From Desulfobacteraceae bacterium (GTDB lineage Bacteria; Desulfobacterota; Syntrophobacteria; Syntrophobacterales; Syntrophobacteraceae): a stretch of 50,135 nt of DNA. Positions 19,635 through 21,899 of this stretch are shown here, piece by piece; positions within the stretch are counted from its first letter, which is position 1, and each line of letters begins with the position of its first letter. Below the pieces are notes generated by a model. That model ran no database searches. It was not told the DNA's origin and saw nothing but the letters and a program-made list of their open reading frames with translations. The translations under genes and the position numbers were made by a program. The stretch lies in NCBI GenBank assembly GCA_021372055.1, contig JAJFVB010000128.1, forward strand, positions 1 through 50,135. Direction: 5' to 3'.

Positions 19635-20540
19635 TCAGACGACGGCATTCTTTCCGTTTGTCAGTTGAACGGAAAAGTCGAGGATCTCGGAACTCTCCCG
19701 GTAGGCCTCCCTGCAAAAGCCGCCAAGGTGACGAGCGCTACGCTCGAAATCCTCGGCAAAGCTCTTCAGGTCGCCGCTCCGGTAGAACTTCTCGTAAATC
19801 TCCAAACCTTCCCTCAGGGTCGAAAAAATCTCGCCCGAATTCGGGTTCATCCCGGTGATGGCCGCGTAGAGTTCCGGGTTCTGCGCCAGTATCCGGCCCA
19901 CCAGGTTCATTTCTATCCTGTAGCTCGGACTTGTATATTCCATAGTCTCCGCGATGTCTATGTCAAGCCGGCGCAGGGTCCTTCCGATGAGCATCGTCGT
20001 GAGGTGAAACAGGACCTGGATGATGCTCATCATCCGGTCGTGCTCCTCCGGACTGCACTCTTTAACGCGGATCCGGCTGTCCGAGAAAAGGCCGCGAAGC
20101 CACGCCCAGTCGGCCTCGTCGATCCGAACCGGGCATGCGACAAGCGTCTGTCCGACAAAACTCGAAACGCGTCCGCCGAACATGGGATGAAGTCCGACAA
20201 CGAAAGCCCTGGACTTGAGCATCTCCCGGACCGGTCCCGACTTGAGGCTGGTAAGGTCCATTACGAGCTGATCCGGACGTATGACAGAGAGGAGTCCCCG
20301 TATGATTTCAACCGTTTTGTGCAGCGGAACGGCGAAAAGGACGATATCCGATGCCTTCACGACTTCTTCGGGGCTCAAGTCTGTTCCCCGATCGCCCACC
20401 ACGACCCGAAACCCGAGGGACTGGAAGAATCCGGAAAAAAGCCTTCCCATTTCACCGCATCCGCCGACGATCCCCACAACCGACCCGGTGTTCCAGCGCG
20501 GGTTTACGGTCGCGGGGCTCGAAAAGTGAGGGTTATCCAT
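19635..20540 (-). CDS. tyrA: Prephenate dehydrogenase (TyrA family)
   Basis: 301 residues from ATG 20540, chosen because GGAGAAAGG precedes it on the minus strand; an alternative TTG lies 10 codons upstream. The NAD(P)-binding loop is GGCGEMG (26-32). DIVLFAVPLHKT and LHPMFGG are conserved in TyrA; the HPMFG loop contacts prephenate. The C-terminal half is helical. There is no fused chorismate mutase and no obvious C-terminal ACT domain. It converts prephenate to 4-hydroxyphenylpyruvate (or acts on arogenate) in tyrosine synthesis. It lies 74 bases downstream of the DAHP synthase gene. Confidence 0.88.
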   Translation of the reverse strand: MDNPHFSSPATVNPRWNTGSVVGIVGGCGEMGRLFSGFFQSLGFRVVVGDRGTDLSPEEVVKASDIVLFAVPLHKTVEIIRGLLSVIRPDQLVMDLTSLKSGPVREMLKSRAFVVGLHPMFGGRVSSFVGQTLVACPVRIDEADWAWLRGLFSDSRIRVKECSPEEHDRMMSIIQVLFHLTTMLIGRTLRRLDIDIAETMEYTSPSYRIEMNLVGRILAQNPELYAAITGMNPNSGEIFSTLREGLEIYEKFYRSGDLKSFAEDFERSARHLGGFCREAYRESSEILDFSVQLTNGKNAVV

Positions 20541-20614
20541 GTCCTTTCTCCATTGTCTTCCGCCGGACAATGCCCAAGCAAGGTCCCGCGGCTGGAATCG
20601 CCGTTAAGGCGGGT

Positions 20615-21628
20615 CTATATAAACCGGTCGACCGCTTCCGCAACCCGGCGGCAATCCTCGACCATTTTTGAGAAATCCTTTGGACGAAGCGATTGCGGGC
20701 CATCGCTCAAAGCCTCCTCCGGACGCACATGGACCTCGACCAGAAGCCCGTCCGCACCCGCCGCAATCGCCGCTTTCGCCATCGCCGGAACCAGATCCAC
20801 CCTGCCCACGGCATGACTCGGATCGACTATCACGGGAAGGTGTGTCAGCTGCTTCAAAAGAGGCACGGCGCTGATATCCAGCGTGTTGCGCGTCTCGGTC
20901 TCAAAGGTCCGGAGTCCCCGCTCGCAAAGGATCACCTTCTCGTTGCCCTGAGCCATGATGTATTCGGCCGACATGAGGAACTCTTTAATGGTCGCGCAGA
21001 GGCCTCTTTTGAGGATCACGGGCTTGTCGATGTTCCCCACTTCAGTCAGTAACCTGAAATTCTGCATGTTCCGCGTGCCGATCTGGACGATATCGGCGTA
21101 CTTGCAGACCAGCACCGTATCTCGCGGGTCCATCAGTTCGGTTACCACCATCATGCCGTGACGGTCGCGAACGCTGGCAAGAAACTTCAATCCCTTTTCG
21201 CCCCAACCCTGGAAAGCATAGGGGGACGTGCGAGGCTTGAATGCCCCGCCCCTCAGGAACTTCACTCCCGCCGGCTGGATCGCATCCGCTATTTCGTCAA
21301 GCACCTCCCTGCTCTCGACCGCGCAAGGACCCGCAATGATCTGGATCTGCTGGCCGCCGATTTCGGAGCCGTTAACCCGTATAACGGTATTTTCCGGTTT
21401 GAACTCCCTGCTGACCAGTTTGTAAGGCTTGAGTATGGGCAGCACCGATTCCACTCCGGGAAAGGACTGCATCGGCAGTTCCGCAATTAGCCGTTCGTCG
21501 CCGATTGCCCCAATGATCGTCCTGTGTTCGCCCTTCGAGATATGGGCCCTCAGACCCATGTCCTCAAGACGCTGAACGATCCTGGACAAGTCTTCCTCCT
21601 GGTGATCGGGCCGCAATACGATAATCAT
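20615..21628 (-). CDS. aroF: 3-deoxy-7-phosphoheptulonate (DAHP) synthase, type I with ferredoxin-like regulatory domain
   Basis: 337 residues from ATG 21628, with AGGAGGAGGT just upstream on the minus strand; an in-frame start further upstream would overlap the attenuator tail. Residues about 1-70 ([30 protein letters not shown]) form the ferredoxin-like domain that binds tyrosine or phenylalanine in Thermotoga-type enzymes. The catalytic barrel has [44 protein letters not shown] and VDPSHAVGR. The enzyme condenses phosphoenolpyruvate and erythrose 4-phosphate, the first step of the shikimate pathway. It heads the operon behind a Tyr/Phe leader peptide and terminator. Confidence 0.95.
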
Positions 21629-21701: not shown

Positions 21702-21742
21702 AAAAAACAAAAAAGCCGTGAGCACCTCAGGCACTCACGGCT
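21702..21742 (-). terminator. Intrinsic terminator of the aroF attenuator
   Basis: On the minus strand AGCCGTGAG (21742-21734) pairs perfectly with CTCACGGCT (21722-21714) over an 11-base loop. It is followed by TTTTTTG and TTTTTTG (21713-21702 region). It lies 27 bases after the leader peptide stop and 85 bases before the aroF start. A competing helix is possible: CGCCTCGGGTAT within the leader ORF (21794-21783) can pair, with some G-U pairs, to GTGCCTGAGGTG (21734-21723) in the terminator loop and its edge. Confidence 0.85.
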
Positions 21743-21769
21743 TCCAACACTTACACGGCTGGATACTTT

Positions 21770-21847
21770 TCAGGAGCAGAGCATACCCGAGGCGTTCCCT
21801 TCGGAGGGATAAAAATAAAAGCAATAATAATACAGCCGGGTCGTCAT
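21770..21847 (-). CDS. Tyr/Phe-rich leader peptide controlling aroF-tyrA
   Basis: 25 residues from ATG 21847, with AGGAGAAA a few bases upstream on the minus strand, to TGA 21772-21770. Codons 6-13 read TAT TAT TAT TGC TTT TAT TTT TAT (YYYCFYFY), that is five Tyr and two Phe codons in eight. It sits between a sigma70-like promoter and an intrinsic terminator, the layout of a ribosome-mediated attenuator. The inference is that shortage of charged tRNA-Tyr (or tRNA-Phe) stalls the ribosome here and allows read-through into aroF-tyrA. Confidence 0.85.
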   Translation of the reverse strand: MTTRLYYYCFYFYPSEGNASGMLCS

Positions 21848-21870
21848 GCTTTCTCCTGTCAGTTCTACTG

Positions 21871-21899
21871 AATAGAAAGGATCATCTCGTTTTTGTCAA
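21871..21899 (-). promoter_or_regulatory. Sigma70-type promoter of the aroF-tyrA operon
   Basis: On the minus strand, TTGACA (21899-21894), a 17-base spacer, then TCTATT (21876-21871). The predicted start is near 21864, about 17 bases before the leader peptide ATG. The -35 is a perfect match. Confidence 0.75.

Follow-up and report, generated by a model that had tools for sequence, protein, structure and literature searches.

What controls the aroF-tyrA operon encoded on the minus strand of the 50,135-nucleotide stretch of DNA analysed here (the window)? Ribosome-mediated attenuation is textbook knowledge for Trp, Phe, His, Leu, Thr and Ile/Val, and the control of tyrosine genes is commonly attributed to TyrR or to T-boxes. 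The original prediction, made from the letters alone, had read the region 5' of aroF as a Tyr/Phe leader-peptide attenuator in a presumed Desulfobacterota genome. The taxonomic guess was borne out, since most relatives whose AroF is 82-87% identical are metagenome-assembled genomes (MAGs) of Syntrophobacteraceae or Syntrophobacterales. Based on comparative and folding analyses, we consider it highly probable that the operon is controlled by a trp-type ribosome-mediated transcription attenuator that is specific for tyrosine.

Organization of the locus

All features described here lie on the minus strand, in the order promoter, AGGAG Shine-Dalgarno sequence, 25-codon leader ORF, terminator with T tract, strong ribosome site, aroF and tyrA. 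Promoter, ribosome site, 25-codon ORF, nine-pair stem, T tract and aroF were all found where the original prediction had placed them. The predicted promoter (21871..21899) consists of TTGACA (21899-21894), a 17-nt spacer and TCTATT (21876-21871). It is missing from the list of a sigma-70 consensus scan, TCTATT having no A at position 2. TTGACA-17-TCTATT nevertheless recurs in seven genus members, the window counted among them, and a TTGAC-16/18-TATnnn-like pair is present in nearly all of the 27 relatives. The Shine-Dalgarno sequence (21853..21857) precedes the leader peptide ORF MTTRLYYYCFYFYPSEGNASGMLCS, whose 25 codons and TGA span 21770..21847. Its codons 6-13 (21809..21832) read Y Y Y C F Y F Y and were assigned as the sensor by ribosome-masked folding; five of the seven aromatic codons are Tyr and two are Phe.

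Three segments of the leader RNA can pair in mutually alternative ways. Segment 1 (AGCAUgacgACCCGG, 21836..21850), the protector strand, is located around the leader start codon and pairs with segment 2, as indicated by folding and by co-adaptation (p=5e-5). Segment 2 (CGCCTCGGGTATGCTC, 21779..21794), defined by folding, lies inside the ORF 3' of the Tyr codons, and its nucleotide core GGTATGC is kept in most relatives. Segment 3 (GAGTGCCTGAGGTG, 21723..21736) comprises the 5' arm and loop of the terminator and is the antiterminator partner of segment 2. The intrinsic terminator itself (3:4, 21711..21745) is followed by the T tract, and an alignment of 27 sequences gives it a consensus stem supported by compensatory changes at six pairs. 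Its core AGCCGTGAG:CTCACGGCT forms nine Watson-Crick pairs, or up to 16 when G-U pairs and A-U ends are included, and the terminated product is predicted to be a discrete short RNA of about 160 nt.

The ATG of aroF at 21628 is preceded by the ribosome site AGGAGGAGG. The gene (20615..21628) encodes a type I DAHP synthase (DAHPS) of 337 aa (PF00793, NF006421), and its N-terminal ferredoxin-like domain, also named in the original prediction, matches PF18152. The following tyrA (19635..20570; PF02153, PF20463) encodes a prephenate dehydrogenase of 311 aa when counted from the listed TTG, the true start being uncertain. The proposed pairing of the two genes in one operon holds beyond the window, as tyrA lies directly 3' of aroF in each of the ten loci of the order that were inspected, namely the window and nine relatives. 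On the plus strand, the operon has genes for an aspartate kinase and a citramalate synthase as divergent neighbours.

Conservation of the leader within the order

An aroF orthologue is present in 30 of the 39 order genomes. Every one of the 29 with readable upstream DNA has a Tyr-rich leader ORF and a terminator 5' of aroF; the thirtieth (L008) stands outside this count because its contig starts within the leader, where Tyr codons are still visible. Conservation of the ORF and its Tyr codons in relatives was the check on which the original prediction had staked itself, and it came out in favour of the prediction throughout. The leader of L016 has an early stop. Together the 29 leaders contain 154 Tyr, 54 Phe and 16 Trp among 754 residues, and Phe does not exceed Tyr in any of them. 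The tyrosine part of the originally proposed Tyr/Phe signal is thus upheld, but an equal weight of the two amino acids is not, and the signal appears to be mainly Tyr. Within the genus the peptides share the end ASGML, and across families the rest of the peptide varies with its Tyr density maintained. In two more distant genomes (L025, L026) aroF lies downstream of two genes that read as trpB and trpA in translation, at a distance of no more than about 65 bases, and the leader is absent, which is the loss to be expected once another operon takes over control.

Two further observations concern the layout of these loci. In two members of family f2 (L138 2893-4905 and L139 2867-4912, minus strand), the Tyr leader is followed by a fusion of TyrA with 3-dehydroquinate synthase (AroB), the proteins having 670-681 aa. 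Nine loci (L014, L016, L020, L021, L029-L033) have, between the terminator and aroF, a second terminator-like hairpin, GGCCGTGGGC..GCTCACGGCC, with T-rich sequence behind it, possibly forming tandem terminators.

The combination of a Tyr-rich leader with a terminator before aroF is beyond chance. No short ORF on either strand of the 50-kb window other than the aroF leader reaches five Tyr/Phe codons out of eight. Under an equal strict rule, ORF and terminator occurred together in 2 of 8100 dinucleotide-shuffled versions of related upstream regions compared with 23 of 27 real regions, and the fold of the window leader has a z of -3.9.

Pairing and co-adaptation of the leader RNA

The competing pairing put forward in the original prediction, 21794-21783 with 21734-21723, is real: it consists of 12 contiguous pairs, G-U included, and an alternative register lengthens it by UGCUC:GAGUG (21783-21779 with 21736-21732). 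The best antiterminator helix in relatives has 10-18 pairs, small interruptions included. In two alignments of family f1, 95% and 91% of the antiterminator cells are paired in register, and sliding the partner by 1-3 columns lowers this to 31-59%. The genus-level alignment gives modest covariation counts, with a score reached in 11 of 500 shuffles and other measures that are not significant.

Segments were also exchanged among genomes, in a swap test in which relatedness is only partly corrected. For the 2:3 pairing, the energies were -23.8 kcal/mol with a leader's own segment, -21.8 with segments of the same family and -18.5 with those of other families (p=5e-5), and for the 1:2 pairing they were -24.2, -21.5 and -19.7 kcal/mol, respectively (p=5e-5). 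Both results stay at p=5e-5 with the exchange confined to the family group, and the 1:3 control pairing had no own-segment advantage in the same test (p=0.82 and 0.98). By these sequence-based measures, antiterminator and protector pairings are co-adapted.

Predicted ribosome-dependent switching

Folding of a partial transcript ending at segment 3, with a ribosome footprint of 18 nt upstream and 9 nt downstream, links these pairings to the position of the ribosome. A ribosome whose A site lies between about codons 5 and 10 masks segment 1 and frees segment 2, and the antiterminator then has a probability of 0.61-0.70. From codon 11 onward this falls to at most 0.02 because segment 1 is freed or segment 2 is itself covered, and the 1:2 protector forms when the ribosome is beyond codon 11 or when there is none. 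Footprints are assumed values, and other choices move the border by one or two codons. The switch expected in the original prediction for a ribosome on the Tyr/Phe stretch is reproduced at codons 5-10, and at codons 11-13 antitermination is not favoured for most footprints. As codons 5-10 are the effective A-site positions, the tandem Tyr codons 6-8 form the core of the working positions. Folding of 29 leaders gave a gain of at least four expected antiterminator pairs in 26 of them when the ribosome was stalled at Tyr/Phe codons, relative to a ribosome at the stop codon; the other three, all from family f3 (L024, L027, L028), show no switch in simple folding. In the full-length transcript no structure outcompetes the terminator at equilibrium, which means that switching has to be kinetic, as it is in the classical attenuators.

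From these data the following sequence of events can be proposed. Transcription would start just 5' of the leader, with immediate translation of the leader peptide. Under a shortage of Tyr-tRNA, the ribosome would stall on Tyr codons 6-8 and cover segment 1, so that segment 2 could pair with segment 3. With this 2:3 pairing the terminator would not form, and the polymerase would continue through aroF and tyrA. With ample Tyr-tRNA, the ribosome would reach the stop codon and cover segment 2, the 3:4 stem would form and transcription would end. It would end as well if no ribosome translated the leader, by way of the 1:2 pairing. Tyrosine would accordingly be the signal sensed in the cell, and Phe limitation may contribute in leaders that hold Phe codons.

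The locus has the parts of a trp-type attenuator: a leader ORF with a Shine-Dalgarno sequence, predicted to be translated, and clustered codons for the end product; an intrinsic terminator between this ORF and aroF; a 2:3 antiterminator that excludes the terminator (save for the three f3 leaders in folding); a 1:2 protector hairpin that folds, co-adapts and is predicted to serve in pausing; and an operon that makes the very amino acid whose codons fill the leader. Conservation, co-adaptation, constrained folding and the link to tyrA thus lend in silico support to the attenuation mechanism that had been proposed.

Alternative explanations

Since two of the seven aromatic residues of the window leader, and 54 residues in the 29 leaders, are Phe, the leader could instead sense Phe, or Tyr and Phe jointly, much as the AroR leader of Corynebacterium glutamicum, a Phe-Tyr-Phe peptide before aroF, answers to Phe and not to Tyr (PMC11802643). 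We regard this as unlikely, as no leader has more Phe than Tyr, the effective stall positions in the window centre on the tandem Tyr codons, the operon partner is tyrA, and a separate Phe-rich leader is kept on a DAHPS-PheA fusion within these genomes. In a role of a different kind, the terminated leader RNA or the peptide might additionally act on other mRNAs in trans, like peTrpL of Sinorhizobium, the one trp leader peptide for which such action is described in PMC7298713, and the discrete short RNA predicted here would fit this. The conservation pattern does not call for it, however, and we judge it very unlikely.

Stalling might also depend on the peptide itself, with its sequence and a bound metabolite arresting the ribosome as in TnaC, and not on codon starvation. 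The conserved ASGML end would be consistent with such nascent-peptide arrest, but this stretch coincides with RNA segment 2, the bases of which are conserved and paired, and the peptide otherwise varies across families with only its Tyr density kept; an arrest peptide is for this reason most improbable. It is scarcely credible that the terminator is constitutive and the ORF accidental, or that a riboswitch or T-box works here without translation. The terminator is indeed the most stable structure at equilibrium, yet the Tyr codons are conserved, the shuffles rarely produce such an arrangement and the pairings are co-adapted. Searches with the Rfam leader families (Trp, His, Leu, Thr and others) returned no hit above the gathering threshold, either in the window or in 20 related loci, and nothing relevant up to E=1 for this region, and the T-box model had no match in any of the 39 order genomes. 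T-box, chance ORF and plain terminator were accordingly rejected on the basis of the shuffles, the swap test and the T-box search. No TrpR scored above the cut-off in the 39 order genomes, but TyrR-type HTH domains (PF18024) are widespread in them, and a DNA-level layer of control may exist besides attenuation.

Leaders of the sister DAHP synthases

Judged from the related genomes, the story is wider than the original prediction, as sister DAHP synthases carry leaders of Phe and Trp type. Genomes of the order encode up to two DAHP synthases besides AroF. One is a DAHPS-prephenate dehydratase fusion (PF00793 and PF00800) preceded by Phe-rich leaders such as ...SGFFFFFFRCARPG (GFFFFFF; L147-L165, e.g. 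L147 2320-2500), with a conserved terminator, AAACCCCGAGGA...TCCTCGGGGTTT, that differs from the Tyr-type terminator. In relatives, the gene for the third DAHP synthase follows Trp-rich leaders such as FWWCWWW (L167-L186) with terminators such as GGACCGTGGGCC...GGCCCACGGTCC; in the window's own genome it adjoins and precedes trpE (contig C104; L145 = G000:C104:1-6000). There are 146 Phe and 11 Tyr in 18 Phe-type leaders and 71 Trp and 5 Tyr in 18 Trp-type leaders, and the three enzymes form separate, well-supported clades that match the leader type.

All three leaders were read in six genomes (G001, G015, G019, G027, G029, G033), and the three-leader set rests on these relatives and not on the window's own genome, in which the Tyr-type leader is the only readable one. 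There, the Trp-type DAHP synthase on C104 starts 56 bases from the contig end, which cuts off its leader; no Phe-type DAHPS fusion and no match to the Phe- or Trp-type terminator patterns were found, and PheA is a chorismate mutase-prephenate dehydratase (CM-PDT) without a readable Phe leader. Based on this comparison, attenuator logic appears to be repeated with Phe and Trp codons at the sister DAHPS operons of related genomes. Probably, then, the three isozymes of Syntrophobacterales are each wired to their own branch (aroF-tyrA, DAHPS::prephenate dehydratase and DAHPS-trp operon) by a codon-matched leader for Tyr, Phe or Trp, with RNA attenuation replacing the work done by TyrR and TrpR in E. 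coli.

In other Desulfobacterota families (L112-L117, L120, L123, L126), aroF homologues are preceded by Phe-rich or mixed Tyr/Phe/Trp leaders and terminators, and no tyrA was recognised 3' of them where the next genes could be read. A serC-like aminotransferase gene lies downstream in four of these genomes (L130-L133), and a cobalamin riboswitch is located near the aroF leader region of one relative (L117 296-461). Outside Desulfobacterota, a Clostridiales MAG (SVHB01000054.1; L060) contains the ORF MYNLFNSDNFRYFSFTYFYFGKACFGCAKDAK and a terminator before a DAHPS gene, which is possibly another Tyr/Phe leader. The window's genome also encodes an archaeal-type 3-dehydroquinate synthase II beside CM-PDT and aroD in addition to a classical AroB (L187 = G000:C97, L188 = G000:C315), possibly providing two routes to dehydroquinate.

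With Phe and Trp leaders in parallel on its sister genes, the aroF system offers a natural experiment in how codon exchange retunes one switch architecture. The short leader peptide allows the feedback specificity of uncharacterised DAHPS isozymes to be predicted, and the leaders could serve as Tyr-, Phe- and Trp-specific RNA sensors.

Comparison with known attenuators and tyrosine control

Attenuation has been established at trp, his, leu, thr, ilv and pheA (PMC1183508). For tyrosine genes, the mechanism otherwise described is the T-box (PMC1262725), and aroF of E. coli is controlled by TyrR/TrpR (PMC11802643). A survey of Rfam leader motifs suggested a gamma-proteobacterial origin of amino acid attenuators with few transfers (PMC3766115), and the Syntrophobacterales loci extend the set covered there. 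We found no description of a Tyr-type attenuator or of a three-isozyme leader set, although Lopatovskaya et al. 2010 (cited in PMC4833913) and Vitreschak et al. 2004 (cited in PMC1262725) may hold predictions.

A close mechanistic likeness is to the trp and pheA attenuators of E. coli and Salmonella (RF00513 Trp leader; pheL), with which the aroF leader shares a short ORF with tandem end-product codons, protector, antiterminator and terminator, and the ribosome as sensor. It differs from them in its Tyr codons, in controlling the pathway-entry enzyme together with tyrA, in the position of segment 1 at the leader start codon and in matching no Rfam model. A leader-peptide attenuator at a DAHP synthase gene is also known from aroR before aroF in C. 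glutamicum (Neshat et al. 2014, cited in PMC11802643; PMC4046766), but according to PMC11802643 that leader, from another phylum, has only Phe-Tyr-Phe and responds to Phe without a response to Tyr. The uORFC-13-1 motif of Acholeplasma likewise combines a uORF and a terminator before aroF, although its U run encodes Phe, it belongs to another phylum and is itself a prediction (PMC8632094). In E. coli the same gene pair, aroF-tyrA, is under tyrosine end-product control, yet through the DNA-binding repressor TyrR and not through a leader peptide; attenuation-like control was merely hypothesised there, going by the citation of Camakaris 1980 in PMC8632094. The tyrosine T-boxes of Firmicutes also control tyrosine genes at the RNA level via tRNA charging, but by binding the tRNA directly. 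The kind of mechanism is thus known, and its specificity for Tyr and the matching of leaders to three isozymes appear to be new; as a conserved Tyr-type attenuator, the aroF leader fills a gap in the attenuation repertoire.
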